DNA from: Haloferax marinum
GTDB taxonomy: Archaea > Halobacteriota > Halobacteria > Halobacteriales > Haloferacaceae
Assembly (NCBI RefSeq): GCF_009674625.1
Contig: NZ_WKJQ01000003.1
Location: 62,001-126,000 of the forward strand
Reading direction: 5' to 3'
Length of the DNA: 64,000 nucleotides
The position numbers were made by a program, and so were the translations under genes. Below are positions 5,586-48,259 of the stretch, in pieces; the stretch's first letter is position 1; each line of letters opens with the position of its first letter. The notes under the pieces were generated by a model. It saw only the letters and a list, made by a program, of their open reading frames with translations, did not search any database and was not told the origin of the DNA.

Positions 5586-6755
5586 TCAGATGAGGTTCGG
5601 ATGTTTGCCGTCGAGTTTCAGCATCTCTTCGATTTCGAAGTCGCCGGGGTGCTCGTCGAACCGGCGTGGACTCCACTCTGGGTAGTCAGTCTTCCCCGCA
5701 CAGATTATGTCGGAGACGGCCTTCCCAACTGCGGGTGACCGCATGAACCCGTGCCCCTGCAACCCGGCGGCGATTACAACGTCGTCCGGACCCGAGTCGC
5801 TCCCTGGCCGGGACGGTGGGTGTCCAACCAGTGGTCTCCCATCGGGCGTCGCGGTACAGAGCCCAGCCCACGCGTTTTGGATACCGGCGTCGTCGACGGG
5901 GAGGCTCCGTTCGACGACCTCACTCATCTCGACGAGGAACTCGAAATCTGCCGTCTGTGCGTATTCATCTGGGTCTGATTCTACTTCTTCAGTCCCGTCA
6001 CCGACGAGGAGTCCACCGCTCTGTTCGGACCGGAAGTAGACTCCCTCGTGTGCGTCGTACACTGTACCGATATCGAAGTCGACCGACGTCGTGACGAGTG
6101 CCTGTGCGCGATAGGGTTTCACCGGTATCTCGACGTCGGCTAACGTGGCGACTTGGGGTGACCACGGTCCCGCGGCGATGACGACCACATCTGTCTGGAC
6201 CGATCCAGACTCGGTTTCGACAGTTGTAGTCGACGAGCTGTCGATTCCTGTGACTTTCGCCCCCGGTCTGTAATCCACACCCTTCGCTTTCGCTTCGTCG
6301 AGGAGCGACGTCGTAAACGTGTGCGGGTCGGCATACCCATCGTCGGGGGCGTACGTGCCGACAGTGACGCCCTCGACTGACAGCGGTGGGTAGATATCTC
6401 GAATCTCGTCGGGTTCGACGAGACGGACGTCTGCTCCCTCTTCTCGTTGCATCGACACCTCCTGTTCGAACGCTGGGCGCTCTGCTTCGGTCCCAGTTCG
6501 GAGGAAGCCCACTTCGTGGTAGGTGAAGTGATTGTCCAACTCCGAGAGTTCACGGAAGAAGTCGATACTGTAGCCCATCGCTCGGACGTCGGGTGCTTCG
6601 TGCAGTTGGGAGAAGACGAGCCCTCCTGCTTTGCCTGTCGTCTCTCCCGCGGCGTGGCCCTTGTCGAGCAGGGTTACGTCTACACCTCGTTCTGCGAGAT
6701 GGTAGGCGGCGCTGACGCCGATTGCACCTGCCCCGATAATCGTCGTATGTGTCAT
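5586..6755 (-). CDS. DAO-family FAD-dependent amine oxidoreductase (1)
   Basis: Flavoenzyme of the D-amino-acid oxidase/sarcosine oxidase/DadA fold, expected to oxidise a C-N bond of an amino acid or secondary amine, giving an imine or aldehyde and reduced FAD. 389 residues. The N-terminal dinucleotide-binding motif is I-I-G-A-G-A-I-G, then the acidic residue at the end of beta-2 is D (LLDKG). The FAD C-terminal motif G-L-Q-G-H-G-F-M is near residue 340. The start is the ATG at 6755, because it puts the Rossmann strand at residue 4; upstream in-frame residues look non-coding. First of seven paralogues in the window, downstream of the aldehyde dehydrogenase genes on the same strand. Substrate unknown. 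Confidence 0.85.
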   Translation of the reverse strand: MTHTTIIGAGAIGVSAAYHLAERGVDVTLLDKGHAAGETTGKAGGLVFSQLHEAPDVRAMGYSIDFFRELSELDNHFTYHEVGFLRTGTEAERPAFEQEVSMQREEGADVRLVEPDEIRDIYPPLSVEGVTVGTYAPDDGYADPHTFTTSLLDEAKAKGVDYRPGAKVTGIDSSSTTTVETESGSVQTDVVVIAAGPWSPQVATLADVEIPVKPYRAQALVTTSVDFDIGTVYDAHEGVYFRSEQSGGLLVGDGTEEVESDPDEYAQTADFEFLVEMSEVVERSLPVDDAGIQNAWAGLCTATPDGRPLVGHPPSRPGSDSGPDDVVIAAGLQGHGFMRSPAVGKAVSDIICAGKTDYPEWSPRRFDEHPGDFEIEEMLKLDGKHPNLI

Positions 6756-6983
6756 GGATTCACCTGCCAACTCAGTAATTGGTGTCTCTTGATAGCTTTT
6801 CACACACTATTTATCTACTGATTCGCCTGGAAACAATCGACCGGTTATCACCGTTCAGTCAGTCGGCTTTGACATGCTGAAGTGGACCAGACACGGACAT
6901 ATCACGAGAGACGGCCGCCATCCCAAACTGGGGGTGCTCACCGATACGAAAAAACGAGAGTGACTGGTTACCAGACGACCGTC

Positions 6984-8435
6984 TCAGGCATCTGGCCAGC
7001 GTTCGATGTAAATCGCCTTGTCGGTGTAGAAGTGAATCATGTCTTCACCCTGTGCGTGTAAGTCGCCGAAGAAGGAGTCTTTCCACCCACCGAAGTGGAA
7101 GAACGCCATCGGTGCGGCGGTCCCTGCGTTGACGGCGAGGTTCCCCGCTTCTACTTCGTGACGGAACCGCTTGGCGTCGCTCCCACGGTCGGTAAAGAGA
7201 CTCGACGCGTTCCCGAAGTCGCTTCGGTTCACGAGGTCGATGGCGTGGTCGAAGTCCTCTGCTTCGACGAGCGCGAGTACGGGGCCAAATATCTCTTCAC
7301 GTGCGATGGTCGCGTCGGGGTCGACGCCGCCGAAGATGGTTGGTCCGAGGAAACTTCCTTCGGTGGGCACGTCGGCTTCACGCCCATCTAACAGGAGTTC
7401 GGCGCCCTCGCTGACTCCCGTTTCGATATAGTCGAGGACGTTGTCACGGTGCGGGCCGGAGATGAGTGGCCCCATGTCGACGTCGTCGCTGAGGCCGTCT
7501 GCGACCGTCATCTCCCGTGCTTTCTCGACGAGCAGTTCTGCGAACTCGTCGTAGATTGCGCTTTCGACGACGGCAACGGGGTTGGCGAGACATCGCTGGC
7601 CTGTGTTGGCGAATGCAGACCCGAGTGTCTGTTCGGCGGCGAAGTCGAGGTCAGCAGACTCCGCGACGACGATGTGATTTTTCGCGCCACCCTGTGCCTG
7701 GACACGCTTGCCGTGTTTCGCCGCGGATTCGTAGACGAGTTTCGCGACGGGGGTGCTGCCGACGAACGAGACGCCCTCGACGCCGGGGTGTTCGATGAGC
7801 GCGTTGACGGCGTCGGCGTCGCCGTTGACGAGTTGAATGATACCGTCCGGGAAGCCAGCCTCGTCTACGAGTTCGACGATTCGTTGGGCGGTGACGGGTG
7901 TCTTTTCGCTCGGTTTGAGGATGAAGGCGTTCCCCGTGGCGACGGCGTACGGAAGGAACCACAGTGGAATCATGCCAGGGAAGTTGAACGGCGTGACGGC
8001 CGCGAAGACGCCGAGCGGTTTTCGCACTGCAGTCTCGTCGATTTCGGGCGCGGCGTTCGGCAGGTGGCCGCCTTGCATCATCGATGGGATGCCGCAGGCG
8101 ACTTCGACGTTCTCGATACCGCGTCGAAGTTCGCCTTTCGCCTCTTTGAACGTCTTGCCGTGTTCTTCGACGAGTGCTTCGGCGAGTTCGTCCTGATTTT
8201 CCTCGAGGAGGTTCTTGAGTTCGAACATCGGTTGAATCCGTTGTTCGACCGGTGTATTACGCCACTCCTCGAAAGCAGAGTTCCCGGCCTGTACGGCGGC
8301 GTTTACGTCTTCAGGAGTCGAGTACTCGATCGTCGCAACTGTTTCTCCGTTCGCCGGGTTCTGTACTGGTTCACCGGCCGGACCGGACGCTGGCGTCCAG
8401 TGGCCGTCGATGTAGTTCTGTAGTTCTTGGGTCAT
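6984..8435 (-). CDS. mmsA: Methylmalonate-semialdehyde dehydrogenase, CoA-acylating
   Basis: Converts methylmalonate or malonate semialdehyde with CoA and NAD+ into propionyl- or acetyl-CoA, the last step of valine and beta-alanine breakdown. 483 residues of the aldehyde dehydrogenase superfamily. Oxyanion Asn in P-F-N-F-P-G (N151), catalytic Cys in N-T-G-Q-R-C (C282). The usual general-base Glu is absent: the segment reads Q-A-Q-G-G-A-K-N-H, as is known for the CoA-dependent MmsA subfamily, which supports this call over a plain aldehyde dehydrogenase. Lies between a second aldehyde dehydrogenase and a DAO enzyme on the same strand, so a role downstream of a transaminase producing malonate semialdehyde is likely. 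Confidence 0.9.
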   Translation of the reverse strand: MTQELQNYIDGHWTPASGPAGEPVQNPANGETVATIEYSTPEDVNAAVQAGNSAFEEWRNTPVEQRIQPMFELKNLLEENQDELAEALVEEHGKTFKEAKGELRRGIENVEVACGIPSMMQGGHLPNAAPEIDETAVRKPLGVFAAVTPFNFPGMIPLWFLPYAVATGNAFILKPSEKTPVTAQRIVELVDEAGFPDGIIQLVNGDADAVNALIEHPGVEGVSFVGSTPVAKLVYESAAKHGKRVQAQGGAKNHIVVAESADLDFAAEQTLGSAFANTGQRCLANPVAVVESAIYDEFAELLVEKAREMTVADGLSDDVDMGPLISGPHRDNVLDYIETGVSEGAELLLDGREADVPTEGSFLGPTIFGGVDPDATIAREEIFGPVLALVEAEDFDHAIDLVNRSDFGNASSLFTDRGSDAKRFRHEVEAGNLAVNAGTAAPMAFFHFGGWKDSFFGDLHAQGEDMIHFYTDKAIYIERWPDA

Positions 8436-8581: not shown

Positions 8582-10006
8582 TCAGTAGTCCGCATAGTTC
8601 ATCATGACCGCTTTTGTCTGGGTCATCGATTCGAGGTGCCACTTGCTGCCGTATCGGCCACCGGACCCACTTTCACCGTATCCACCGAACGGGAGGAGTC
8701 GTTCCCAGTAGTTGTTACTCTCGTTGATGAAGACCCCGCCCGCTTTCAGTCGATTCGCGGCGTCGTGTGCGCGTTCGAGCGAGTCAGTAAAGATGGCGGC
8801 CTGCAGACCGTACCGCGACCGGTTCGCGATTTCGATAGCTTCGTCGTAATCGGCCGCCCGGATGACTGGGGTAATCGGGCCGAACGTCTCTTCTTCGGCA
8901 ACGGCCATGCTTTCGGTCACATCCTCGAGGACCGCTGGGTCGAAGTAGAGGCCGTCAGTCTCACCACCGGTCCGAAGTGTCGCCCCTTTGGTGACGGCGT
9001 CGTCGACGTGTTCGACGGCCTTGGACTGAATTCGTTTCGAGACCATCGGACCCATGTCGACGCCAGATTCGAATGGGTCGCCGAGGACGAGGTCTTCTGT
9101 CTTCTCGACGATGGCGTCGACGAGCTCGTCGTGAGCTCCTTCTGTGACGATTACACGCTCTGTCCCACAGCACACCTGTCCTGCGTTCCAGTTGCTCCCG
9201 ACGACTATCGACTCTGCCGCGTGGTCGATATCCGCGTCGTCTAAGACGACGATGGGGTCTTTCCCACCCATCTCCAGCAAACACTGAGCGTTTCGCCCGG
9301 CAGCGGTCTTCGCAATCTGTTGGCCCACTTCCGTACTGCCGGTGAAGGCGATGAGACGAACGTCGTCGTGCTCGACGAGTGACTGACCTGTCTCGCCCGC
9401 CCCGGTCACCAGGTTGAACGCACCGTCTGGCAGACTGGACTGCTCGAACGCATTTGCGATGTGATACGCAGTCAGCGGCGTCTCCTCTGCGGGCTTGAAG
9501 ACGACTGGATTTGCCGTCGCGATAGCCGCGTAGATGCTCCCTCCCGGTACTTCGAGCGGGAAGTTCCACGGACTGATGACCGCGCAAACGCCGTACGGTT
9601 CTCGTTGCGTGTACGCGAAGCGCCCGCGATGTTCAGATGGGACGACGTCTCCGAACAGACGGATGGCGTCGTGTCCATAATCGTCGCTGGAGCTGATGAC
9701 GTACGCTGTTTCTTCGTACGCCTCGTGGAGTGGTTTCCCCTCCTCACGGACGATACCCGCCGCGATTTCGTCTTCGTGTTCGACGAAATACTCCGTGACC
9801 TCGTCGAGCACTGCTGCCCGCTCGAAGGCGGTCATCTCTTCGAGCGCTCGTTGGGAGCGTCGTGCCGCCTCGACCGCACGCCGTACGTCGTCGGCAGTGC
9901 CTGCCGGAACGGAGTCGATCACCTCCCCCGTCACCGGCGAGTCCACGTCGATTCGCTCGTCTCCCGTGGAATCGACCCACTCGCCGCCTATGTAAAGTTG
10001 TTTCAT
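8582..10006 (-). CDS. NAD(P)-dependent aldehyde dehydrogenase
   Basis: Oxidises an aldehyde to the acid with NAD(P)+. 474 residues of the aldehyde dehydrogenase superfamily with all key positions: Asn in P-W-N-F-P (N148), the NAD-binding G-S-T-E-V-G motif near 223-228, general base Glu in L-E-M-G-G-K-D (E245) and the nucleophile in G-Q-V-C (C279). The start is the ATG at 10006 (MKQLYIGG); the longer open frame would run into the end of the aldehyde ferredoxin oxidoreductase gene. Same strand as that gene (76 bases away) and as MmsA. By context it handles the aldehyde made from an amine by transamination or DAO oxidation; succinate semialdehyde or an aminoaldehyde are possible substrates, unproven. 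Confidence 0.9.
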   Translation of the reverse strand: MKQLYIGGEWVDSTGDERIDVDSPVTGEVIDSVPAGTADDVRRAVEAARRSQRALEEMTAFERAAVLDEVTEYFVEHEDEIAAGIVREEGKPLHEAYEETAYVISSSDDYGHDAIRLFGDVVPSEHRGRFAYTQREPYGVCAVISPWNFPLEVPGGSIYAAIATANPVVFKPAEETPLTAYHIANAFEQSSLPDGAFNLVTGAGETGQSLVEHDDVRLIAFTGSTEVGQQIAKTAAGRNAQCLLEMGGKDPIVVLDDADIDHAAESIVVGSNWNAGQVCCGTERVIVTEGAHDELVDAIVEKTEDLVLGDPFESGVDMGPMVSKRIQSKAVEHVDDAVTKGATLRTGGETDGLYFDPAVLEDVTESMAVAEEETFGPITPVIRAADYDEAIEIANRSRYGLQAAIFTDSLERAHDAANRLKAGGVFINESNNYWERLLPFGGYGESGSGGRYGSKWHLESMTQTKAVMMNYADY

Positions 10007-10082: not shown

Positions 10083-11924
10083 CTAGTGCGCTGCTTCAGC
10101 GAAATCCTGGATGTCGAGTCGGTCGAGTAACTCGTCTGTGGGCACTCCATCGGACGTGTAGCCGCGCTTCTCGTAGTATTCGTCGAGCATCGTCGCGAAC
10201 GCCTCTTCGGTGATGTGATTCCCGTCGGCTGGTCCGCCCGCTTCGAGGGGTTCAGTGAACCGAACGGGGAGTTCGTCTTCGTCGCGTCCGAACCCTTCTC
10301 GAACGTTGAAGAGTCGGGTCATCGTCCACGTCCGTTCGCCGACGGTTTCGAGGTCTTCGACGTCCACGTCGTATCCGAGTTCGTTGAGCCACTCGGCCGC
10401 GCGTTCGTAGTTGTAGGCCGTGAAATCACAGGAGACCATGCTGAACGTCAGTGCGTTTTCGTCTTGGTCTTCGATGACTGCTTCTGCCATGCCGTCTGTG
10501 CCGAATGGGTCACGACTGCCACCCATCGCGTCACTTCCTATCGGCCAGGCACGCTGGTGACAGCCACCTCGGTCACTCGTCGCGTATGCGAGTGCCATCC
10601 CGAACGAAGCGCGTGGGTCGTAGGCTGGCAGCTCCATCCCCTTGACCTGTACTGCGGCCTCGCGAGCCGTGTCGTCGTCGAGTTCTTCGGCAGCCAGTTT
10701 CGTCCCTTCTGCAAGCATGTCACCGACTTCGTTGTCCCGGTGGGCGATATCCTCGATGAGTTGGGCGGCCGCTCGAGCGTCACCCCACGAGAGGTCGTAG
10801 TCGACGAGCCCCGCATCGACACACTCCATCGCGAACGAGATGACGTTCCCGAGGCTGATGGTGTCCATCCCGAGGGTGTCGGCACGGTGTGCGAGTTCCG
10901 TGATTCCTGTAACGTCTGTAATGTCGGTGTTCGACCCCATCATCCCGATGGTCTCGTACTCTGGCCCCCAATCGACCTGCGCGTCTGGGAACGCAGCGTC
11001 TTCGACGTCAGCGTCTGAGAAGTCGACGACGTGACCACACGCGACTGGACAGCCGTAGCAGGAGTCCGTCGTCTGGTGGCCCACGCTGAATGCGTCGATG
11101 TTGATATCTTCGACATCCGCGACTGTTCCCTTCGTCCAGTTGTGGGTCGGCAACGCGCCGATTTCTTGCGTCCAGTCTGGGATGAGTTGCGTCCCTCCGT
11201 CGCGGGCCCACGCGACTTCCTTGTCCGTGCCGAGACGTTGTGTGTGCTTGATTCGGAGCTCTTGGATATCGGACTTCGGCGGCCCGTCGGCGGACGCGAC
11301 GACGGCTTTGAGATTCTTCGACCCCATGACAGCGCCGACTCCGCCCCGGCCTGCGTGGTGGGTGCCTTCGTCACTCGAAATCGTCGCATACCGGACGAGG
11401 TTCTCACCTGCAGGACCGATGGCGGCCGTTTTGGTCTCTTTGCCATCGAACTGCTTTGCCGTCTCGTCCGTCTTCATTCCCCAGAGGTGGCTCGCGTCTT
11501 CGATCGTCACGTCTTCGCGAGACACGTCGAGATAGACCGGCGAATCGGCCTTCCCTTCGACGATCATTCCGAGGTAGGAAGGCAGTGCCCACCGGAACCG
11601 AGTCGGGAAGTGCCCGCCAGAGTACGAGTCGACGAACGTTCCCGTGAGTGGTGACTTCGTGATGGCACCGTACCGGGAGGTACCCGGTGCAAATCCGGTG
11701 AGTGGCCCGAACGAGAAGATGAGGAGGTTTTCGGGCGAGAGCGGGTCGGTACCCGGTTCCAGTTCGTCGAGGAGAAGCGCTGTCCCGAGACCTTTTCCGG
11801 CGATGAATCGGTCCCGATACTCCTGTGGGACCGTCTCGGTCTGCACTGTTCGTTCGGTGAGGTTCACGCGCAGAAGATGGGTGAGCTCTTGCACCTCGTC
11901 GGTCTGCACGACACGTTGTGACAT
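10083..11924 (-). CDS. Aldehyde:ferredoxin oxidoreductase (tungsten/molybdenum enzyme)
   Basis: Oxidises aldehydes to acids and reduces ferredoxin, with a tungsto- or molybdo-bispterin and a 4Fe-4S cluster. 613 residues, close to the family length. The cluster ligands are visible: C289-x2-C292-x3-C296 in a C-Y-G-C-P-V-A-C motif and a distant fourth Cys in M-V-S-C-D (C499). The N-terminal pterin-binding domain (about 1-210) carries the G-R-G-G-V-G-A-V-M-G-S-K-N-L-K motif characteristic of the family. ATG at 11924 preferred over the GTG two codons upstream. Lies between the transporter operon and the aldehyde dehydrogenases, so two or three different aldehyde-oxidising systems sit side by side. 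Confidence 0.92.
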   Translation of the reverse strand: MSQRVVQTDEVQELTHLLRVNLTERTVQTETVPQEYRDRFIAGKGLGTALLLDELEPGTDPLSPENLLIFSFGPLTGFAPGTSRYGAITKSPLTGTFVDSYSGGHFPTRFRWALPSYLGMIVEGKADSPVYLDVSREDVTIEDASHLWGMKTDETAKQFDGKETKTAAIGPAGENLVRYATISSDEGTHHAGRGGVGAVMGSKNLKAVVASADGPPKSDIQELRIKHTQRLGTDKEVAWARDGGTQLIPDWTQEIGALPTHNWTKGTVADVEDINIDAFSVGHQTTDSCYGCPVACGHVVDFSDADVEDAAFPDAQVDWGPEYETIGMMGSNTDITDVTGITELAHRADTLGMDTISLGNVISFAMECVDAGLVDYDLSWGDARAAAQLIEDIAHRDNEVGDMLAEGTKLAAEELDDDTAREAAVQVKGMELPAYDPRASFGMALAYATSDRGGCHQRAWPIGSDAMGGSRDPFGTDGMAEAVIEDQDENALTFSMVSCDFTAYNYERAAEWLNELGYDVDVEDLETVGERTWTMTRLFNVREGFGRDEDELPVRFTEPLEAGGPADGNHITEEAFATMLDEYYEKRGYTSDGVPTDELLDRLDIQDFAEAAH

Positions 11925-12091: not shown

Positions 12092-13249
12092 CTACCGGAC
12101 GAGTGTAACCGCGTTCGACGCGTCCCACCCGATTCTGATGTCGCGACCGATGGAGAGATAGTCGCCTTGGTCGGTCAACTGGAGGTCGACTGTGAGTTGT
12201 CGTCCGTTCTCCAGTTTGACGACGAACTTTCCGAGGTTTCCTTTGTAGATTTCGTCGATGACCTCGGCGCTGAACTCGTTGTCCAGCCCTCGGGCGTCGT
12301 CACCTAGTCGAATCTTCTCCGGTCGGATAGCGAACGCGATATCACCGGACGCTTCGTCGTGCGGTTTGACCCGGAACGTGAGGCTTCCGTCGGTGATGCT
12401 CGCTCCGTCGTCGTCTTCGGCGTACGTGCCGTGTACGAGGTTCGTCTCACCGATGAAGTCAGCGACGAACTCCGACGCAGGTTCTTCGTATATCTCCGTC
12501 GCGGTCCCGAGTTGCTCGAGACGACCCTCGTTCATCACTGCGATTTCGTCGCTCATCGTCAGTGCTTCTTCCTGGTCGTGCGTCACGTAGACGAACGTGA
12601 TGCCGAGTTCTTCCTGCAGATTTTTCAACTCGACTTGCATGTTCTTTCGGAGTTTCAAGTCGAGGGCGCCGAGGGGTTCGTCGAGGAGAAGTACAGTGGG
12701 TTCTGTCACGAGTGCGCGAGCGAGCGCGATACGTTGTTGTTGACCGCCAGAGAGCTCAGAGATTTGCCGGTCTGCCATCTCCGGTAGTTCGACCAGTTCG
12801 AGAACGCGCTGGACGCGAGTATCGATTTCCTCGCTTCCGTGGCGACTGACGAGTCGCTTGAACGCGCCGCTGAGCCCCGACGATTGCGTCGCCACCGAGC
12901 CACCGTCTGCGGCGGTCCGTTCCCCTGGAATCCCCTGCATCTGTAACCCGAAGGCGATGTTCTCTCCGACGGTCATGTGGGGGAACAGCGCGTACGACTG
13001 AAACACCATACTGGTGTCTCGTTCGAAGGGTTGGAGGTCGTTGATTCGTTGGTCTCGGAGGTAGACGTCACCCTCACTGGGCGTTTCGAACCCCGCAATC
13101 ATGCGGAGCGTCGTCGTCTTCCCGCATCCAGACGGGCCGAGAAGGGTGAGGAACTTCCCCTGTTCGACCTCGAAACTCACGTCCTCTACGGCGGTGACGT
13201 CACCGAAAAACTTCGAGACACCGTCGAGGCGGACGTCGTATTCGGTCAT
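12092..13249 (-). CDS. potA: Spermidine/putrescine-type ABC transporter ATPase
   Basis: ATP-binding subunit of a PotABCD-like importer. 385 residues: nucleotide-binding domain with Walker A G-P-S-G-C-G-K-T-T (38-46), Q-loop Q84, signature L-S-G-G-Q-Q-Q-R (166-173), Walker B V-L-L-L-D-E-P and a C-terminal TOBE domain from about residue 275. A stretch of roughly 28-32 residues (about 109-140), rich in Gly, Ser and Ala, is inserted between the Q-loop region and the helical domain, where PotA proteins usually have only a few residues. Last gene of the order permease-permease-binding protein-ATPase; 38 bases separate it from the binding protein. Confidence 0.88.
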   Translation of the reverse strand: MTEYDVRLDGVSKFFGDVTAVEDVSFEVEQGKFLTLLGPSGCGKTTTLRMIAGFETPSEGDVYLRDQRINDLQPFERDTSMVFQSYALFPHMTVGENIAFGLQMQGIPGERTAADGGSVATQSSGLSGAFKRLVSRHGSEEIDTRVQRVLELVELPEMADRQISELSGGQQQRIALARALVTEPTVLLLDEPLGALDLKLRKNMQVELKNLQEELGITFVYVTHDQEEALTMSDEIAVMNEGRLEQLGTATEIYEEPASEFVADFIGETNLVHGTYAEDDDGASITDGSLTFRVKPHDEASGDIAFAIRPEKIRLGDDARGLDNEFSAEVIDEIYKGNLGKFVVKLENGRQLTVDLQLTDQGDYLSIGRDIRIGWDASNAVTLVR

Positions 13250-13287
13250 CCTCAGCTGTCACCTCCGAATCGGATTTCGTGGGCCAT

Positions 13288-14547
13288 CTATGCGTTCTTG
13301 ATTTCCGTCCAAGCTTCACTGTACAACTTCGTCGCTTGCCCGATGTTTTCGATGAACTCGAGTTTCTCGAAGACGTCTTCCGGCGGGTAGATCGATGGGT
13401 TGTTCAGTGCCGCTTCATCGACGAACTCCTTTGCCGCTCCGTTCGGTGTCGGGTAGTAGAGGTAGTTGGCGATCTCTGCGTTCATCTTGGCGTTCAGGAG
13501 GAAGTTGATGAATGCGTGCGCTGCGTTCGGACTCTTGGCGTTTTTCGTAATCGCGGCCGTGTCGACCCAGACGACGCCACCCTCTTGTGGGACGACGTAG
13601 TTGATCGGGGAACTATCGTCTTCGTAGAGCTCCCAGTACGCGACGAACGCGTCACCAGACCAACAGTGAAGCGGACTCGCTTCCTGGTTTTGGAGTGCTG
13701 CCGCACGCGACACTGACGAGTACGTGAGCAGCAGTGGCTTCTGGTCGATGAGGAGCTGTTTCGCTTCCTCGATCTCCGCTTCGTCGGTCGTGTTGAGGGA
13801 GTAGCCGAGATATTTGAGCGCGGCCCCGATGGTCTCGCGCATGTCGTTGAGCATCGTAATCTGTCCTTGGTACTTCTCGTCCCACATCACTTCCCACGAA
13901 GGGGTGCCTTCGATGTCCGGCGTCATCTCGGAGTTCCACGCGACACCACTGGTACCCCAGAAGTACGGTGCCGAGTACCGGTCGTCAGTCGGGTCGTACG
14001 GAGCGTCGTCTTTCCACATGGGTTCGAGGTTGTCCCAGTGCGTAAGCTTCCCTGTATCGAGTGGTTGGAGAAGGTCCTGGCTCTGCATGATGCTCACCAT
14101 ATAATCACTGGGGAACGTGAGGTCGAACTGACCGGACCCTCCAGCTTTGAGCTTGTTGAACATCTCCTCGTTCGAGGCGTAGTTCGAGACGCTTACGTCG
14201 ACCCCGTATGCCTTCTCGAAGATTTCGACGGTCCCAGACGGCCAGTAATCGGTCCACTGGAAGACGTTGAGTGTCTCCTCCAGTGGGTAGTCGAGTTCGG
14301 GAAGGCCGTACTCTTCACGGACTGACGCGTCACCCCGGTCTTCTTGCGGAGTTGCGGTGTTCTGTTCTTCTGTCGTGTCTTCTCCGCCGCCACCTCCACC
14401 GCCGTTACTATCCCCGCCAGAGCTGTCGCCACCAGAGTCACTGTCGCCGCCGCCAGTACAACCGGCGAGTCCAGTGATCCCGCCGACACCAACCGTGCCG
14501 GTTACCTTCAAAAACGTACGCCGGGTCGAATTATCTTCAGAATTCAT
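13288..14547 (-). CDS. potD: Polyamine-type ABC transporter substrate-binding lipoprotein
   Basis: Extracellular solute-binding protein of the PotD/PotF family, delivering a polyamine or similar cation to the permease pair. 419 residues. The start ATG at 14547 places a Tat signal (R9-R10-T-F-L-K) and a lipobox L-A-G-C (C30) correctly, followed by a Gly/Ser/Asp-rich linker typical of haloarchaeal lipoproteins and a binding domain from about residue 80 (L-N-V-F-Q-W-T-D-Y motif). It is thus exported folded and lipid-anchored. 88 bases downstream of the second permease. Ligand specificity (putrescine, spermidine or another amine) cannot be read from sequence. Confidence 0.88.
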   Translation of the reverse strand: MNSEDNSTRRTFLKVTGTVGVGGITGLAGCTGGGDSDSGGDSSGGDSNGGGGGGGEDTTEEQNTATPQEDRGDASVREEYGLPELDYPLEETLNVFQWTDYWPSGTVEIFEKAYGVDVSVSNYASNEEMFNKLKAGGSGQFDLTFPSDYMVSIMQSQDLLQPLDTGKLTHWDNLEPMWKDDAPYDPTDDRYSAPYFWGTSGVAWNSEMTPDIEGTPSWEVMWDEKYQGQITMLNDMRETIGAALKYLGYSLNTTDEAEIEEAKQLLIDQKPLLLTYSSVSRAAALQNQEASPLHCWSGDAFVAYWELYEDDSSPINYVVPQEGGVVWVDTAAITKNAKSPNAAHAFINFLLNAKMNAEIANYLYYPTPNGAAKEFVDEAALNNPSIYPPEDVFEKLEFIENIGQATKLYSEAWTEIKNA

Positions 14548-14635
14548 GGTAATTGGTATCAGTCTTCTTGGCAATGGTAGACATGGGCCATAAACATTTT
14601 GGTGATTTATGTTTGTGAACGTCTGTTTTTTCTGA

Positions 14636-33292: not shown

Positions 33293-33433
33293 GACACCTC
33301 TTTCGACACAGAACGCTGGGGGAGATTTATGTCCGTTCGTGTTATACAGTTGACGTAGTAGCTTGTGATTGTCGGGCCCCTCCATCTCCGAAACTTGGGC
33401 GTTCTCGACTCTCGCACTGCTGGGGAACTCATC

Positions 33434-40274: not shown

Positions 40275-40353
40275 TGTACAGACTGACCCAGAGAACCATC
40301 TAATAGATTGGGGTCGTGTCACGTGGTAATATGTCTGAAGAGCGTGCAGCCTT

Positions 40354-40372
40354 GTTTCACACATGGTGAAAC
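40354..40372. promoter_or_regulatory. Operator-like palindrome, copy 1
   Basis: GTTTCACACATGGTGAAAC. Two 6-base arms TTTCAC/GTGAAA around a 5-base spacer, here extended to 7-base arms by G/C. It is the copy nearest the acyl-CoA synthetase start (about 80 bases upstream). Confidence 0.75.
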
Positions 40373-40726: not shown

Positions 40727-42085
40727 TTAGTGCCAGGATTCCTGTTCGTCGGCCAGTGTTGGGGCGATGTTCTTGAACGCCTCGATCGTCTCGTCGACGT
40801 GTTCTTCGGTGTGTTGGACGCTGATAGTCCACTGCTGGCGGGCACCGTAGGGGTGTGGAATAATACCCTGATTCACCATCCCAAACCAAAACAGCCGATG
40901 GAAGTCGTCGTTGATGTTCGCCATGAACTCCCGGTAGTTGGTGATGTTCGCGTCGGTGAACTGGACCATTCCCTGGGAGTTTACGTTTCGAACCTGTCCG
41001 GTGATTCCCGCATCTTCTATCACGTCTTCGTACCCTGATTTCATCTGTTCACCAAGCTTGTTCACGTGCTGGTATGCATCGTCGGTCAACACGTCACGAA
41101 GCGCCGTTACCAACGCTCGGAGGACGAATGGGTTCCCGTTATAGGTTCCGTAGTGCCACGCGTAGTCGTTCGAGATCTGGTCCATGATCGCATCAGACCC
41201 GCCGAACGCGCCGACAGACGTTTCGCCTCCGATCGACTTCGCCATCGTCACCATATCGGGCTGAACACCGTAGTACTCGGCAGCGCCACCGGGGGCGACC
41301 TTCACTCCTGTCTTCACCTCGTCGAAGATGAGGACGATGCCGTACTCGTCACAGAGGTCTTTGAGTCCTTCGAGGTAATCTTGCTGCGGAGGCGTCACCG
41401 ACTTGTTCAACATAACCGGTTCGACGATGAATGCGCCGATTTCGTTTATGTTGTCTCGCATGATGTCTTCGGTCGCTTCGAGGTCGTTGAACGGTGCGAT
41501 TTCGACAGTTTCGACCGTCTTATCTGGGATTCCGTGTCCGTCCGCTACCTTCATCGGTCGGTTCGGGTGGCCTGCTTTGCCCTTCGGTGGGGTGCCACTC
41601 ACCATCACGTAATCGTGGACACCGTGGTACGTTCCTTCGATTTTGAGAAGCTTGTCTCGACCGGTGTACGCACGTGCCATCCGAATCGCGTGCATCGTCG
41701 CCTCCGTCCCACTGTTGGTGAACCGAACTTTCTCGAGTGCACTCCACCGCTTTTTCAGTTCTGTTGCGGCCTCCGCCAATAACCCGTGGGGCATCGTGTA
41801 CAGCGTGCCCTCATCGAGTTGGTCGTGAAGTGCCGCTGTAATCTTTGGGTGGGTGTGTCCGCAGAGTCCCGCTCCGTTGTTCATGTCGTAGTCGAGATAA
41901 CGGTTCCCGTCTACGTCTTCGAGATAGACTCCGTCGCTATGGTCGATGTAGAACGGATACGGGTCGAACTGACGAGACGTGCTCGCAACACCACTAGGAA
42001 TGTGTTCGCGAGTCTCCTCGTGGAGTGTTTCGCTGGTCGGCGTACGCTCTCGGTACTCGGCCACTAGGTTCTCCCAATAAGCCAT
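40727..42085 (-). CDS. Class-III aminotransferase, glutamate-1-semialdehyde aminomutase-like (3)
   Basis: 452 residues, PLP fold type I class III. D-P-Y-P-F near residue 41, T-N-S-G-T-E-A-T-M-H-A-I-R-M-A-R-A-Y-T-G (123-142), D-E-V-K-T-G-V-K (255-262) and PLP lysine in M-A-K-S (K283). The first two motifs are shared almost exactly with aminotransferase 2, so the two are paralogues in the HemL-like branch. Its start is 136 bases from the divergent DAO enzyme 4, giving a third aminotransferase-DAO pair. A catabolic role is more likely than haem synthesis, by context. Confidence 0.88.
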   Translation of the reverse strand: MAYWENLVAEYRERTPTSETLHEETREHIPSGVASTSRQFDPYPFYIDHSDGVYLEDVDGNRYLDYDMNNGAGLCGHTHPKITAALHDQLDEGTLYTMPHGLLAEAATELKKRWSALEKVRFTNSGTEATMHAIRMARAYTGRDKLLKIEGTYHGVHDYVMVSGTPPKGKAGHPNRPMKVADGHGIPDKTVETVEIAPFNDLEATEDIMRDNINEIGAFIVEPVMLNKSVTPPQQDYLEGLKDLCDEYGIVLIFDEVKTGVKVAPGGAAEYYGVQPDMVTMAKSIGGETSVGAFGGSDAIMDQISNDYAWHYGTYNGNPFVLRALVTALRDVLTDDAYQHVNKLGEQMKSGYEDVIEDAGITGQVRNVNSQGMVQFTDANITNYREFMANINDDFHRLFWFGMVNQGIIPHPYGARQQWTISVQHTEEHVDETIEAFKNIAPTLADEQESWH

Positions 42086-42217: not shown

Positions 42218-42220
42218 GTG

Positions 42221-43396
42221 ATGACAAGTTCTGATACTGACTACGACGTGGTCATCGTCGGAGGGGGTGTGGCCGGTTGTGCCTCCGCGTACCATCTTGC
42301 AACCGACCACGACGTCGCCATCGTCGAACGAGGTCAAATCGCCGGTGAGGCCTCCGGCTTGGCAGCCGGTCTCGTCGCGCCAACGTTGTTCCACGGTAGC
42401 CACCCAGACGTCGCACGGTACGCGAACCAGTGGTTCAGGGAGTTCGACGGGACGCAGAACTTCTCGTTTCACGAACGACCACGAATCGAGTTCATCCAAC
42501 CCGACAGCGAGGACGTTGCGCGTGAACGTGCCGCAACTCTTTCCGACGAGGGGTTCCCGGTTTCCTTCCTCGAACCAACGGAGGTAGAACGAGAATATTC
42601 TCGGTTCGACGCCTCGCGGTTTGCTGGTGTCGTCGAGTACGCGGACACAGGGTGGGTCGACCCCTACGAATACACTGTCGCCCTCCAGAAGGCCGCTGAA
42701 GCCCGCGGTGTCGACGTGTTCAGGCACACACCGGTTAGTGACGTTCACGTCGAGGACGGGGTCGCAGAAATCGAACTCCCAGAACGGTCGCTGTCTGCGG
42801 AGTACTGTGTCATGGCCACGGGGTGGCGGACACGAGAGTTCCTCTCAGAATACATCGACCTTCCTATCCGGCCGTTTCATCTGCAGTGCGCAATGCTCCG
42901 ACTCGAGGAACCCCTCGACGACACCTTCCCGCTGGGTCGGGTCGCCAGAGAAGAACTCTACTTCCGCGGTGAACTCAACGGTGACCTCCTCGTTGGTGGC
43001 GGAGAATATCTAGAGGATAACCCCGAAGTCAACGCCTCGGGTTCTGGGACCGACGACGAATTCCGACTTCACGTCGCGAGTACGATTCCAACCGTTATCC
43101 ACGGAGCAGAACGGGCGGAGTTCGTCGACGGGTGGTCGGGCGTCGACGCGGCCACACCAGATACGCTCCCGCTCCTCGGGTCGTCATCTGCACTCCCAGA
43201 CGAAATCGTCGTGGCTGTCGGCCTCAACGGGTTAGGGATGGTGAACTCTCCCATCGCGGCGGAAGCGGTTCGGTCGTACATCACGGGCGAAGAACCGGCG
43301 TTTTCGGTCGAACAGTTCGCCGTCGATAGATTCGAAGACGGTGCTGCTGATTTCGACCTTCGAGGAACGTTCGAGATGGAGGGTGCCGGCCGATAA
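42221..43396 (+). CDS. DAO-family FAD-dependent oxidoreductase (4)
   Basis: 391-residue DAO-fold flavoenzyme from ATG 42221. Rossmann motif V-V-I-V-G-G-G-V-A-G-C-A near residue 10, E at the end of beta-2 (I-V-E-R-G). Shared paralogue signatures: T-G-W-V-D-P-Y, R-G-E-L-N-G-D-L-L-V-G-G and the C-terminal L-N-G-L-G-M-V-N-S-P. Divergent from aminotransferase 3 and probably leaderless. Closest in layout to DAO 2 and 3 (F-H-L-Q-C-A-M-L corresponds to Y-R-T-Q-C). Confidence 0.86.
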   Translation: MTSSDTDYDVVIVGGGVAGCASAYHLATDHDVAIVERGQIAGEASGLAAGLVAPTLFHGSHPDVARYANQWFREFDGTQNFSFHERPRIEFIQPDSEDVARERAATLSDEGFPVSFLEPTEVEREYSRFDASRFAGVVEYADTGWVDPYEYTVALQKAAEARGVDVFRHTPVSDVHVEDGVAEIELPERSLSAEYCVMATGWRTREFLSEYIDLPIRPFHLQCAMLRLEEPLDDTFPLGRVAREELYFRGELNGDLLVGGGEYLEDNPEVNASGSGTDDEFRLHVASTIPTVIHGAERAEFVDGWSGVDAATPDTLPLLGSSSALPDEIVVAVGLNGLGMVNSPIAAEAVRSYITGEEPAFSVEQFAVDRFEDGAADFDLRGTFEMEGAGR

Positions 43397-43528: not shown

Positions 43529-44707
43529 ATGGAAAGCGAGAGCTACGACGTTGTAATCGTCGGTGGTGGAATCAACGGTTGTGTGGCAGCGAAATTTCTC
43601 TCGGAGGACCACGACGTACTCGTTCTCGAGAGAGACCAGATTGCGGCCGCAACGACCGCGAAGGCGTCGGGGCTTATCTCGGTTGCTCACGACTACATCG
43701 GCCACCTAGAGGCCGCCAAGTACGCGGCCGACTTCTTCGACGAGTACGACGGTACGGGGGATTTCGAGTTCACCCAGCGGAAAAACCTCCGCCTCATTCC
43801 GCCGGGGACAGAGGAACTCGCTCAGTCCGAAGCAGAACAGATAGAAGAGCACTTCGAGATGGACTACATCGAGTCGACGAGCGAAATCGAAGACCGCTAT
43901 CCTGGGGCCCTCGAGTTGGACCCCTTCGTCGGCGCTATCGAGGTCGAACAAGGTGGGTGGGTCGACCCGTACACACTGACGATTACCTACAAGGAAGACG
44001 CTGAAGACGCCGGTGCTGACTTCGAGACGGGTGTCGAGGTGACTGGCGTCACCACTGAGGACGGTGCAGTCACCGGTGTCGAGACGGACGGCGGCTCGTA
44101 CGCTGCAGACACCGTCGTCGTCGCGATGGGCTGGCACACCAAGGAGTTCGTCTCCGAGTGGGTCGACCTTCCCATCCGACCGTTCCGCTACCAGTGGGTC
44201 AACCTCGAAGTGGAGCGTGAGTTCCCTGACTACTTCCCTGTCTGCTGGGACATTCGGAGTGGTCTCTACTGGCGTCCAGAGCACAACGGTGACCTCCACG
44301 TCGGCGGCGGAACGTACTACGTGGACGAACCTGGCACGACTCGGACGACCCCTACCGAGAGTTTCAAGCGTCACGTCGCCATGACGATTCCAGAGCAGGT
44401 AAAGAACGTCGAGGACGCACGCATCTCTAGTGGAGATACGTGTCACATCGGGGATACAGCGACCCCTGACGAGCGACCAATCCACGACGCGCCTGCGGAC
44501 TGTCCCGACGGACTCGTCATCTCGACAGGAATGCACGGGTTCGGCATCATGGGGTCGCCCGTCACCGGTGCTGCAGTGCGTTCTCTCGTCACTGGCGAGG
44601 ACGCACCGTTCCCACTGTCGAAATACACGCTCGACCGCTTCGATGACGGCCCACAAGACTGGACCACGACGTTCATCAACGAGTCTCCGGACGACATTGG
44701 CAGCTAA
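43529..44707 (+). CDS. DAO-family FAD-dependent oxidoreductase (5)
   Basis: 392-residue DAO-fold flavoenzyme. V-I-V-G-G-G-I-N-G-C-V-A-A near residue 8; G-G-W-V-D-P-Y; L-Y-W-R-P-E-H-N-G-D-L-H-V-G-G-G-T-Y-Y-V; late M-H-G-F-G-I-M-G-S-P-V. It is very like DAO 7 at 47081-48259 (same length, same A-K/P-K-A-S-G-L-I and W-R-P-E-H-N-G-D-L-H-V motifs), so the two are recent paralogues that may act on related substrates. Same strand as DAO 4, 132 bases after it. Confidence 0.86.
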   Translation: MESESYDVVIVGGGINGCVAAKFLSEDHDVLVLERDQIAAATTAKASGLISVAHDYIGHLEAAKYAADFFDEYDGTGDFEFTQRKNLRLIPPGTEELAQSEAEQIEEHFEMDYIESTSEIEDRYPGALELDPFVGAIEVEQGGWVDPYTLTITYKEDAEDAGADFETGVEVTGVTTEDGAVTGVETDGGSYAADTVVVAMGWHTKEFVSEWVDLPIRPFRYQWVNLEVEREFPDYFPVCWDIRSGLYWRPEHNGDLHVGGGTYYVDEPGTTRTTPTESFKRHVAMTIPEQVKNVEDARISSGDTCHIGDTATPDERPIHDAPADCPDGLVISTGMHGFGIMGSPVTGAAVRSLVTGEDAPFPLSKYTLDRFDDGPQDWTTTFINESPDDIGS

Positions 44708-44905: not shown

Positions 44906-46057
44906 TTAGCGGTCTGCCCACCACTGGACGGCGTCGGTTATTTCGAACGCCTCGTCCCCTTCGAATCGTGTCGGGTCGAACTCAGACGGGTCGACGAGGG
45001 GGTCTGTGCCCACGATTAGGTCGGTGAGCAGACGAGCAGCGAAGGGGCTATTCGAGACACCCTCTCCGTTGAATCCGGAACAGACGTAGAGCCCTTCGAT
45101 ATCTGTCTCTCCGATGTATGGATAGCGGTCGGGGGTCGCCGAGACACGTCCCGCCCAGTCGTCGTGGAGCGTTGCGTCTTCGAGGACTGGCAGTATCCTG
45201 GGGGCTAGCTCACCGACCTGTAGGAGGAACGGCACTCTTGCCCGAGTACGAAACGACTCGAGGTCTGTCACCGGTGTCGTGGTTCCGCCACCGAACAGGA
45301 CCCGGCCCTCGGGTGTCGACCGACCGTAGACACTCAAATCCGGCGCGCTCCACATGGGAATGTCTCTGTCAGACGGTGGTTCGAGAATCGCAATCTGGCT
45401 CGTTCGCGGTCGCAGAGCGACGTCCGTCCCCGCCCGTTGGAGAAGTCGCTTCGTCCACGCACCGGCGGCGACGACCACGATTGGCGACTCGTACCTGCCG
45501 TCAGTCGTCTGCACAGAGATTTCGTTTCCTTCTACCTCGAAGTCTCGAGCTTCTTCTTGTACCAGTGTCGCCCCCTCGTCACGAGCAACTGCATGGGCCG
45601 CGAGTGTCAACTGCTTTGGGTCAGTGTAGACTGCGTCTTCGAAGCCCAGTGCCACTGTGACGTCGTCTGTGGCGAATTCTGGCTCTCGCTCAGCCAACTC
45701 GTCGGCGTTCAACAGTTCTGTCTCGATAGTCGTCGATTCGTGCTCTGACCGGAGGTAGTCTGCTCCTTCGTCACTGTATGCGATGGAGTAGGACTTCGTC
45801 CTGTGGAGCGTGAGGTCGTCGTACTTCTGTTCGTACTCTTCGTAGAGTTCACGCCCAAGTCGAGAGGCATCTGCCCCGAACCGTTCGTGGCGATAGATGG
45901 TCAGATTTCCCGCGGCACGGCCGCTTGCCTTGCTCGCGGGAGCGTCGCGTTCGAGAATGACGACGTTTTCTACCCCTGCCCTGGTGAGTTGAACCGCACA
46001 GTTCGCACCGACGATGCCACCACCAACGACTACGGCGCCGACACGTCTGCTAGTCAT
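44906..46057 (-). CDS. DAO-family FAD-dependent oxidoreductase (6)
   Basis: 383-residue DAO-fold flavoenzyme, the most divergent of the seven. A-V-V-V-G-G-G-I-V-G-A-N-C near residue 7, E in V-I-L-E-R-D, and a C-terminal F-N-G-E-G-V-S-N-S-P FAD motif. It lacks the G-W-V-D-P-Y motif; the corresponding segment is A-V-Y-T-D-P-K. It follows the IclR gene by 80 bases on the same strand, so the regulator and this enzyme may be co-transcribed. Substrate unknown; sarcosine-oxidase-like or glycine-oxidase-like chemistry is possible. Confidence 0.85.
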   Translation of the reverse strand: MTSRRVGAVVVGGGIVGANCAVQLTRAGVENVVILERDAPASKASGRAAGNLTIYRHERFGADASRLGRELYEEYEQKYDDLTLHRTKSYSIAYSDEGADYLRSEHESTTIETELLNADELAEREPEFATDDVTVALGFEDAVYTDPKQLTLAAHAVARDEGATLVQEEARDFEVEGNEISVQTTDGRYESPIVVVAAGAWTKRLLQRAGTDVALRPRTSQIAILEPPSDRDIPMWSAPDLSVYGRSTPEGRVLFGGGTTTPVTDLESFRTRARVPFLLQVGELAPRILPVLEDATLHDDWAGRVSATPDRYPYIGETDIEGLYVCSGFNGEGVSNSPFAARLLTDLIVGTDPLVDPSEFDPTRFEGDEAFEITDAVQWWADR

Positions 46058-46137: not shown

Positions 46138-46920
46138 CTATGCTTCTGTGGTTTGCATCTCTGCTTCGATTGCTTCCTTTGTGTGGAGTAATTGGTCGAC
46201 GATTTGGTGAGGCACGCTGGTCTCGAAGTGATAGCTCGGCCACCCGACGGTGATTGCTCCGATTATCGTCCCGTCAGGACCCGTGATGACCACACCGATG
46301 TTGTCGAACCCTTCGACGATCTCTTGCTTCGCGCTGGAGTATCCTCGTTCCCGAACCTGTTCTAACTCTTCGGACAGTACCTCGCGACTCGTAATAGAGT
46401 ACTGTGTGGATTCGGGGAGTCCCCACTCGTCTAGTACTTCTTCGACGTCACTCTCAGACATCGCTGCAAGTATTGCCTTTCCAGATGCCGTACAGCCCAT
46501 CGGGTAGAATGTCCCGACGTTCAGATTTGAATCCGCTGTGGGGTACTTCGTGAACTTGTACCCGGTATCGATGACCGATACGACACGGCCGTGTTCCTCG
46601 ACCAGAAACTCGATCTCCAGTTCCAGTCGCTCTGCGAGTTCGAGCACATTTCGTCTGATTACTTCGATGTAAGGAATGCTTTGGGTGGCTGAGACACCGT
46701 GTTTGAGAAACTTCATCCCCAGCGAATATCTGCCGTCCCTCCTGACGAGGACGCCTTCGTGTTCGAGTGTCACCAAGTGGTTGTGAGCCGTACTGTGTCC
46801 GATGTCGAACTCGGAGGCGACATCGGTCAGGCGCACACTCCCCTGTTCCTCGACGTACTCGAGAATACGCAGCGAGCGTATCGTCGATTTGACCAACCGT
46901 CCGGAACCGGTGTGTGTCAT
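46138..46920 (-). CDS. IclR family transcriptional regulator
   Basis: 260 residues from ATG 46920: an N-terminal winged HTH (about 8-65; R-S-L-R-I-L-E-Y, V-R-L-T-D-V-A-S-E-F, S-T-A-H-N-H-L) and an effector-binding domain (about 80-255; A-S-G-K-A-I-L-A). Such proteins respond to small aromatic, sugar or amino compounds. It lies between DAO 6 and the divergent DAO 7, and it has an inverted repeat across its own promoter (46929-46948), so autoregulation and control of the two DAO genes are plausible. Effector unknown. Confidence 0.9.
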   Translation of the reverse strand: MTHTGSGRLVKSTIRSLRILEYVEEQGSVRLTDVASEFDIGHSTAHNHLVTLEHEGVLVRRDGRYSLGMKFLKHGVSATQSIPYIEVIRRNVLELAERLELEIEFLVEEHGRVVSVIDTGYKFTKYPTADSNLNVGTFYPMGCTASGKAILAAMSESDVEEVLDEWGLPESTQYSITSREVLSEELEQVRERGYSSAKQEIVEGFDNIGVVITGPDGTIIGAITVGWPSYHFETSVPHQIVDQLLHTKEAIEAEMQTTEA

Positions 46921-46928
46921 TACCTGTC

Positions 46929-46948
46929 TATGGGCGAATATTCCCATA
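46929..46948 (-). promoter_or_regulatory. Inverted repeat at the IclR promoter
   Basis: TATGGGCGAATATTCCCATA, arms TATGGG/CCCATA with an 8-base spacer, 9-28 bases before the IclR ATG (46920) on the minus strand, where a TTTATGGG TATA-like element also lies. It fits an autoregulatory operator. The neighbouring DAO 4 promoter has a similar TTTATGG...CCATA layout. Confidence 0.55.
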
Positions 46949-47056: not shown

Positions 47057-47080
47057 CGAGTCATCAGAGTAGAGGTGTCT

Positions 47081-48259
47081 ATGCCTCGTCCTGAGTCATA
47101 CGACGTGATTGTCGTTGGGGGTGGTGTCATCGGCTGTGCGACAGCGCGAGAACTAGCCCCTGACCACGACGTCCTCGTCTTGGAAGGTGGTACAGCCGGT
47201 GGCGATACGAGTCCGAAAGCGTCTGGACTGATAACTACGTGTCCTGACTTTCCTGACTATCCCGAAGCGTGCGCCTACGCTATGGAGTTCTTCCACTCCT
47301 ACGATGGGACAGGGCAGTTCACGTTCACACCGCGACCAGGTATCAACCTCGTCTCCGCCGAGGAAGAATCCTGGGGACGTGAACACGCAACTGAGATGGC
47401 TTCCCACGGGTTCGACGTGACGTATCTCACTTCCACAGAGATTGCCGACCGATATCCTGGTGCGCTGGTAGTAGACAAATTCGTCGGTGGTGTGGTGTTC
47501 GACGATTGTGGTTGGGTCGACCCCTACACGTACACGATGACGCTGAAGGCGGACGCCGAGGGTCGTGGTGCCCAATACGAGACGAACATGCACGTCGAAG
47601 CTGTGGAGACCGATGATGGGTCGGTGACCGGTGTACGCGTAAATGGGGAGACTATCACGGCTGATCACGTGGTCTGTGCGACTGGCTGGCGGACCCGAAG
47701 TCTCCTCTCAGACCTTGTCGAAGTTCCGGTCCGACCGTTCCGTTGGCAAACTGTGAACCTCGAGGTGAGTCGAGAGTTCGACGAGGAGTTCCCGATGGCG
47801 TGGGACGCACACTCCGGCATGTACTGGCGTCCGGAACACAACGGGGACCTCCACGTCGGCGGCGGCACGTACTTCGTCGAGAACCCTGGGAACGTCCGAA
47901 GCTCCATCACGGAAAGCTTCCGCAAAGCGGTCGCAGAGGCCGTCGTTGACCGTGTCAAGGACGTCGAAGACGCCCGAATCAAAAGTGAGGACTGCTGTCC
48001 GTCAGGTGACGCGGCCACGCCAGACGACGTGCCGATTATCGACGCCCCCAGCGAGGCACCAGATGGGCTCATCGTCGCAATCACGGGACCCGTTGGGGGA
48101 ATCATGTGCTCGCCGTTCGTCGCGACTGCCGTTCGCTCGCTCGTTACGGGGGAGTCTGCACCGTTCCCAATCGAACCGTATCGCCTCGGACGGTTCGAGA
48201 ACCGGTCTGCTGACTTCGAGTGTGCACACGTCACAGAACGGACAGTCCATACCGATTGA
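47081..48259 (+). CDS. DAO-family FAD-dependent oxidoreductase (7)
   Basis: 392-residue DAO-fold flavoenzyme from ATG 47081. V-I-V-V-G-G-G-V-I-G-C-A-T near residue 9, C-G-W-V-D-P-Y, M-Y-W-R-P-E-H-N-G-D-L-H-V-G-G-G-T-Y-F-V, and C-terminal I-T-G-P-V-G-G-I-M-C-S-P. Close paralogue of DAO 5. Divergent from the IclR regulator, with the shared 160-base region holding both promoters, so it is the likeliest IclR target. The upstream open frame to 46802 is shadow of the regulator gene. Confidence 0.87.
   Translation: MPRPESYDVIVVGGGVIGCATARELAPDHDVLVLEGGTAGGDTSPKASGLITTCPDFPDYPEACAYAMEFFHSYDGTGQFTFTPRPGINLVSAEEESWGREHATEMASHGFDVTYLTSTEIADRYPGALVVDKFVGGVVFDDCGWVDPYTYTMTLKADAEGRGAQYETNMHVEAVETDDGSVTGVRVNGETITADHVVCATGWRTRSLLSDLVEVPVRPFRWQTVNLEVSREFDEEFPMAWDAHSGMYWRPEHNGDLHVGGGTYFVENPGNVRSSITESFRKAVAEAVVDRVKDVEDARIKSEDCCPSGDAATPDDVPIIDAPSEAPDGLIVAITGPVGGIMCSPFVATAVRSLVTGESAPFPIEPYRLGRFENRSADFECAHVTERTVHTD

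Follow-up and report, generated by a model that had tools for sequence, protein, structure and literature searches.

The window analysed here is a 64,000-nucleotide stretch of Haloferax marinum (positions 62,001 to 126,000 of contig NZ_WKJQ01000003.1, called C3 below), in which seven DAO-fold flavoenzyme genes (PF01266; DAO1 to DAO7) and three class III aminotransferase genes (AT1 to AT3) stand within 43 kb. We read this island, with a probability of roughly 0.6, as a locus for polyamine-type amine scavenging and catabolism on a 195-kb secondary replicon. The sole conserved pair among its three aminotransferase-DAO pairs is AT2-DAO3, and the typical block is PotADCB / Lrp-pentein-AT2-DAO3. A first-pass annotation, made from the sequence alone, had proposed a dedicated catabolic island with one aminotransferase-DAO module repeated three times. 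An amine-type catabolic island, a polyamine-type importer, and one pair (AT2-DAO3) are supported, but the threefold module did not survive comparison with other genomes.

Conservation of the aminotransferase-DAO pairs

PF01266 was matched by all seven DAO genes at 170-242 bits (cut-off 27.9), and PF00202 by the three aminotransferases at 201-283 bits (cut-off 30.5). The positions and strands first assigned to these genes were confirmed. Every aminotransferase also adjoins a DAO gene, as had been observed. AT1 (18010..19305, minus strand, start codon at 19305) and DAO2 (19434..20597, plus strand) are divergent and 128 bases apart, the stop of AT2 (20708..22099, plus) at 22099 and the start of DAO3 (22103..23290, plus) at 22103 have 3 bases between them, and AT3 (40727..42085, minus, start at 42085) and DAO4 (42221..43396, plus) are divergent and 135 bases apart. 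The genome holds 13 PF01266 rows above 150 bits (42 rows altogether). Seven of the 13 lie in the island, where 0.159 would be expected by chance (P(>=7) 6.7e-11), and one further such row lies elsewhere on C3. Similarly, three of the genome's eight class III aminotransferases are in the island (0.098 expected, P ~1e-4). When the order of three aminotransferases and seven DAOs was randomised in about 38 genes (a rough count), every aminotransferase adjoined a DAO in 3.4% of the shuffles. Therefore, once the clustering is granted, adjacency alone is weak evidence of modules.

The surroundings of AT1, AT2, and AT3 relatives were then compared. The DAO genes in these loci were found by local hidden Markov model searches (E <= 1e-20) from the seven window DAOs and K-12 PuuB, DadA, and SolA. 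For AT2, 19 of 79 loci were haloarchaeal, the other 60 being bacterial proteins with 30-39% identity, and further sources were 14 of 194 genomes of the class (the H. marinum genome included) and seven plasmid records. Duplicates with an identical C-terminal 250 residues were merged, which left 30 distinct AT2 loci. The window and Natribaculum longum stand outside the 30; in the latter, a stretch of no more than 5 kb contains the pentein, AT2, and a DAO. Flanks are short in L026, L031, and L032, and L091 matches AT2 residues 183-462 only. The AT1 set consisted of 23 loci (20 of the 38 matches from other genomes, with wide flanks, and three found in other loci), and the AT3 set of 16 loci (all 12 matches from other genomes and four found in other loci).

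A DAO gene was present within 3 kb of AT2 in 23 of the 30 distinct haloarchaeal loci. A DAO3-type gene stands downstream of AT2 on the same strand in 20 loci, four of which have one more class III aminotransferase in between, and the nearest DAO is upstream in three. Such an intervening class III aminotransferase, 30-33% like AT1, is seen in L017, L019, L022, and L023. AT1 was present in 39 of the 194 genomes of the class, and a DAO, a distant one, was within 3 kb in one of its 23 loci. AT3 was present in 11 of the 194 genomes, with a DAO within 3 kb in two of 16 loci; in both, another gene (IclR or AT2) intervenes, and the two are never immediate neighbours. Moreover, the three pairs are not copies of each other, since AT1 shares 25-27% identity with AT2 and AT3, and the latter two share 37%. 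Three equal aminotransferase-DAO modules were therefore ruled out by synteny. Conservation of the pairing across haloarchaea holds for AT2-DAO3, which recurs in several genera and whose partnership the synteny supports, but not for the AT1 and AT3 pairs.

A fourth aminotransferase-DAO neighbourhood was seen on the chromosome C1 (L256, 13112-16896), where a DAO (30% like DAO1) and a class III aminotransferase (27% like AT1) flank an IclR-type gene.

Importer, flavoenzymes, and the proposed pathway

The importer genes (12092..16470, minus) are of the PotA-D-C-B polyamine ABC type. PotA scored over the cut-off of TIGR01187 (371 vs. 355.6 bits), whereas the equivalog models for PotD (233 vs. 582), PotC (233 vs. 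326), and PotB (213 vs. 348) stayed below theirs. Among solved structures, the PotD homologue (13288-14544) is nearest to the PotD-type polyamine-binding proteins. It keeps 11 of the 12 residues which we take to be the ligand contacts of E. coli PotD, the letters having been checked in K-12 PotD. The PotDs aligned from pentein-type loci (n = 13) keep 10-11 of the 12, and E. coli PotF, as a yardstick, keeps 7. The predicted import of a polyamine is supported by this residue conservation.

The relatives carry further amine-related genes. On pNMAG01 of Natrialba magadii, AT2 and DAO3- and DAO5-like genes are accompanied by two genes of the glutamine synthetase (GS) family, a class-I amidotransferase, and a histone-deacetylase-family hydrolase, and Natribaculum luteum adds annotated agmatinase, ornithine cyclodeaminase, and GS genes. 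The GS-family enzymes of the relatives are 30-32% identical to K-12 PuuA. To call them PuuA-like is a guess, since they score 235-250 bits with the gamma-glutamylputrescine synthetase model, slightly less than with the type III GS model (253-268 bits), and all scores are below the cut-offs.

DAO2, DAO3, DAO4, DAO5 (43529..44707, plus), and DAO7 (47081..48259, plus) form one subfamily with 38-52% mutual identity. DAO1 (5586..6758, minus), which scored 242 bits with PF01266 and has an 81% identical copy in a genome of the same genus (G078), and the divergent DAO6 (44906..46057, minus) are distant from it (25-32%). None of the seven window DAOs has the Arg in the WxGLR motif of K-12 DadA, presumably carboxylate-binding, and in the DAO2/3/4-type rows Asp stands in its place. 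The Arg/Lys pair of SolA, which we assume to bind the substrate, is also absent from all seven, and K-12 PuuB itself has neither the DadA Arg nor the SolA pair. Since both are missing in all seven DAOs, the substrates are probably amines without an alpha-carboxylate. The D-amino acid and sarcosine-type readings of the DAOs were rejected for the same missing residues, and the sequences are too distant for a decision on PuuB membership.

Among the aminotransferases, AT1 is an omega-type, PRK06062-like enzyme (PF00202 283 bits; NF004718 412 bits, below the cut-off of 472). AT2 is GSAM-like, with relatives at 69-86% identity; it passes the GSAM subfamily model PRK00062 (405 vs. 398 bits) and falls below the hemL equivalog (381 vs. 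527). AT3 is GSAM/GntE-like (PF00202 202 bits), and its relatives of 59-65% identity stand beside Pot, GS, or histone-deacetylase-family genes.

From these families we infer the substrates, the reactions, their order, and the role of every DAO and of the pentein. PotABCD would import a cationic di- or polyamine. AT2, a pyridoxal phosphate enzyme, and the DAO-fold flavin dehydrogenases DAO3, DAO2, DAO4, DAO5, and DAO7 would remove terminal or substituted amines in parallel. This would yield amino-aldehydes, which an aldehyde dehydrogenase (ALDH; 8582..9994, minus) and an enzyme of the aldehyde:ferredoxin oxidoreductase (AOR) family (10083..11921, minus) would oxidise to omega-amino acids. AT1 may deaminate a beta-alanine-type product, and a (methyl)malonate-semialdehyde dehydrogenase (MMSDH; 6984..8435, minus) may convert the semialdehyde to acetyl-CoA. 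The right half of the island would contribute a CoA-ester route through an ADP-forming acyl-CoA synthetase (ACS; 38130..40364, minus) and an enoyl-CoA hydratase family protein (ECH; 37295..38119, plus), and the Lrp/AsnC-type (16626..17105, plus) and IclR-type (46138..46947, minus) proteins would control the block.

The parallel action of aminotransferase and DAO on primary and substituted amines is suggested by analogy with aminoethylphosphonate clusters. The accessible part of PMC10590968 describes there PF01266 oxidoreductases beside PhnW, flavoenzyme and transaminase yielding the same aldehyde and the flavoenzyme taking the N-methylated form. The predicted end from beta-alanine to acetyl-CoA is supported by three lines. 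MMSDH is of the CoA-acylating kind by TIGR01722 (526 bits, over the curated cut-off of 448.5), an MMSDH gene is near the AT1 relative in 6 of 20 loci, and gabT6-mmsA of Haloferax volcanii, an omega-aminotransferase and a (methyl)malonate-semialdehyde dehydrogenase, was read as a pair of beta-alanine genes (PMC6801745, accessible part). The H. volcanii locus shares Pot-type ABC genes and an Lrp-type candidate regulator with the window, but no DAO is mentioned in that part of the paper.

Several points weigh against polyamine catabolism. Seven of the 30 AT2 loci lack a DAO within 3 kb, namely those of Halarchaeum acidiphilum, Natronorubrum aibiense (DAO 4.9 kb off), Haladaptatus sp. DYF46, H. 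caseinilyticus plasmid 4, two Natrinema species, and genome G091. AT2 is over the cut-off of a GSAM subfamily model, not of a diamine aminotransferase, and identity to K-12 PuuB is 20-26% for five of the seven DAOs, with no match listed for DAO5 and DAO7. The PotD-like proteins of GS-type (Natrialba-type) loci keep 8 of the 12 ligand residues and some other neighbours 3-5; therefore, the substrate need not be the same in all relatives. In H. caseinilyticus, a gene for a transporter of the BCCT family, which is known for betaines, is about 5 kb away from DAO3. About 14 kb of other genes (sulfatase, formylglycine-generating enzyme, and others) separate the left and right halves of the island. 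Furthermore, another haloarchaeal Pot system was proposed, in the accessible part of PMC6801745, to carry L-alanine.

Two-source make-up of the island and rival explanations

The window unites two older loci, its left half resembling genome G039 and its right half a plasmid of N. luteum (NZ_CP095398.1). The left half is ordered MMSDH, ALDH, AOR, PotA, PotD, PotC, PotB / Lrp, pentein, [AT1], [DAO2], AT2, DAO3. N. luteum keeps this order but lacks DAO1, AT1, and DAO2 and has a saccharopine-dehydrogenase-like gene in addition, and G039 has Lrp, pentein, DAO2, AT2, DAO3. The ALDH, for which every ALDH family listed was below its cut-off, has orthologues of 73-84% near AT2 elsewhere; the AOR (NF007354 177 bits, cut-off 868) has a 73% orthologue at the same position in N. 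luteum; and the Lrp, assigned by model match, adjoins pentein-AT2 in other genomes. The right half matches one other stretch of the N. luteum plasmid at 70-88% identity: ECH (PF00378 159 bits) at 88%, ACS (every model below its cut-off) at 81%, DAO4 at 82%, DAO5 at 87%, DAO6 at 79%, DAO7 at 72%, and the IclR protein (model match) at 70%. Of these neighbours, the first-pass annotation had given ALDH and AOR as aldehyde-oxidising enzymes and had named the Lrp, IclR, and ACS genes; these families, and that of ECH, were confirmed.

The N. luteum plasmid thus has, at 205-290 and 423-438 kb, relatives of most island genes, among them DAO4-7, ECH, ACS, IclR, and the genes of the pentein-AT2-DAO3 block. 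It differs in having two separate blocks, extra GS genes, EtfBA, and agmatinase, and in that some 26 kb separate its AT3 (65%) from DAO4. The place that AT3 takes in the window, between ACS and DAO4, is occupied there by a DAO7-like gene in two pieces (L287, 8052-8923). EtfBA directly follows the DAO5 orthologue (L287, 13445-15186), which hints at dehydrogenase rather than oxidase activity. In a 69-row DAO tree, DAO4, DAO5, DAO6, and DAO7 were each sister to an N. luteum gene (support 100/100), and DAO2 and DAO3 (PF01266 205 bits for DAO2) were sister to G039 genes (100/98 and 99/98); the K-12 references, being on long branches, were given no weight. A recent local duplication of the DAOs was ruled out by these pairings.

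C3 is a secondary replicon of 195,008 bases in a genome of 3.48 Mb in three contigs (completeness 94%), and a Cdc6-like gene (34% identity) lies on it outside the window. Its G+C content is lower (window 0.562, island 0.575) than that of eight sampled chromosome stretches (0.585-0.640). Plasmid relatives of the window DNA cover at most 13% of a 24-kb query. At the search thresholds, nine other sampled genomes of the same genus were all without AT1, AT2, AT3, and the DAO5-type subfamily; therefore, the island is accessory. Four upstream stretches of the window gave no convincing alignment of a shared regulatory motif, and in ten relatives the PotB-Lrp spacers were inspected by eye only; a sigma-70 promoter scan is inapplicable to archaea. 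Between the island halves lie a sulfatase gene (27816-30215, PF00884) and a formylglycine-generating-enzyme-like gene (33365-34411, PF03781). Just right of DAO7, at 48401-48613, is a fragment that resembles an N. luteum transposase of the IS1595 family (44% over 71 residues). Farther right, succinylglutamate desuccinylase-like and copper ATPase genes (53408-56897) form a pair that is also together on other haloarchaeal plasmids, two of which carry a saccharopine-dehydrogenase-like gene as well. A low-G+C patch at 58001-60600 (0.396 in 58001-60000) has two genes with GC3 of 0.37-0.39, one weakly matching DUF4145 and the other without a match.

Two sources could also mean functionally mixed plasmid cargo, in which amine genes for several unrelated substrates make no single pathway and each half has its own substrate. 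The halves differ in their closest relatives (G039 vs. N. luteum), the neighbours of AT1 and AT3 vary between genomes, and other genes sit between the halves. However, G073 (L227) joins the right-half ECH, ACS, IclR, and a DAO with the left-half AT2, DAO3, ALDH, and Pot, and N. luteum has both gene sets on one plasmid; we regard mixed cargo as unlikely, though a serious contender. Demethylation of N-methyl amino acids or betaines, with several sarcosine-oxidase-like DAOs for successive steps, appears quite improbable. It would fit the nearest solved relatives of DAO2 and DAO3, which include sarcosine-oxidase-type and glycine oxidase chains, as well as the EtfBA after DAO5 in N. luteum and the BCCT transporter near the block in H. 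caseinilyticus; on the other hand, the SolA Arg/Lys pair is missing in all seven DAOs, and no folate (GCV_T) domain was found on the seven by Pfam.

Even less credit is due to a D-amino acid module, with a class III aminotransferase acting as racemase and a DAO oxidising the D-form. The solved structures related to AT1, AT2, and AT3 include class III racemases, and the DAOs weakly match the ThiO and D-amino acid dehydrogenase models. Nevertheless, the ThiO scores are 81-127 bits against a cut-off of 250.8, the DadA Arg is absent from all seven, and the importer is PotD-like. A complete gamma-glutamylation (Puu) pathway is scarcely credible, although Natrialba-type loci have Puu-like parts and a glutamate-putrescine ligase was shown in Haloferax mediterranei, according to the accessible part of PMC8394153. 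The H. marinum genome, at the completeness given above, has one PF00120 gene (glutamine synthetase), on C1. PF07722 (PuuD) gave eight rows of at most 35 bits, none in the island, a weak test since the N. magadii amidotransferase itself scores 37. Since the genome has one GS, the gamma-glutamyl route is incomplete here, unless PuuA is encoded in the part absent from the assembly, and polyamine catabolism in the island would not follow the standard Puu pathway.

A Cys-less pentein and the relation to known systems

Between the Lrp and AT2 genes lies a gene for a 290-residue pentein (17102..17974, plus; PF02274 77 bits), homologous to ADI and DDAH, in which the Cys of the GGxxC motif of these enzymes is replaced by Gly. 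The Gly is invariant in a 13-row alignment (the window protein included) and is also present in two plasmid orthologues, thus in 15 of 15 haloarchaeal sequences aligned. The bacterial relatives (27-34% identical) kept the Cys in 5 of 5 aligned, out of 21 non-haloarchaeal records. Asp84, Glu132, and His187 are invariant; in the alignment they match conserved positions of DDAH and ADI, presumably those with catalytic roles. An AlphaFold model (13 rows; mean pLDDT 77.3, pTM 0.80) has repeated strand and helix units, which appear to fit the pentein fold, as expected.

The pentein was found in 8 of the 194 genomes of the class, all eight with AT2, and in 3 of 294 genomes of the phylum. Among the 30 AT2 loci, 14 had the pentein, eight had a GS or amidotransferase within 12 kb, none had both, and eight had neither (Fisher P 0.0027 for the exclusion, a value that ignores relatedness). 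AT2 had a DAO beside it in all 14 pentein loci, in seven of the eight GS-type loci, and in two of the eight loci with neither. A strict exclusion is disfavoured by the N. luteum plasmid, which carries GS genes about 150 kb from its pentein block. One reading of this pattern, which we consider decidedly unlikely, would be a glutamylation-free polyamine catabolism of haloarchaea, in which the Cys-less pentein replaces the gamma-glutamyl synthetase/hydrolase pair and works with the GSAM-like transaminase and the Asp-containing DAO flavoenzyme. The pentein might then carry an amine, act as a sensor for Lrp, or catalyse a new kind of reaction.

Polyamine-type catabolism with a DAO, a class III aminotransferase, an ALDH, and an importer is known in outline. 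The Puu pathway of E. coli likewise uses a DAO-fold oxidase (PuuB), a class III aminotransferase (PuuE), and an ALDH (PuuC) for polyamine breakdown, and the Natrialba-type relatives of the window locus add GS-family and amidotransferase genes. In contrast, the window genome has no second GS, its DAOs are 20-26% like PuuB or have no match, and the window has ABC import, Lrp, the pentein, AOR, and MMSDH. The aminoethylphosphonate clusters also combine a flavoenzyme and a transaminase in one cluster; no phosphonate-specific model was over its cut-off among the window proteins scanned. Since these clusters and the K-12 puu cluster, with puuB and puuE together, are described, the general flavoenzyme and transaminase idea has precedent. 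The literature searched, with most subscription journals outside it, held no account of the gene arrangement seen here, of a pentein without its Cys, or of how this pentein is distributed relative to GS.

Archaeal polyamine breakdown seems little described; in haloarchaea, PMC8394153 alone appears, from its accessible part, to treat it directly in the literature searched. As a defined unit, the conserved Pot-Lrp-pentein-AT2-DAO3 block can be tested in Haladaptatus, Halorubrum, Halopenitus, and Natribaculum; its Cys-less pentein poses the question of what a guanidine-enzyme fold does without its nucleophile.

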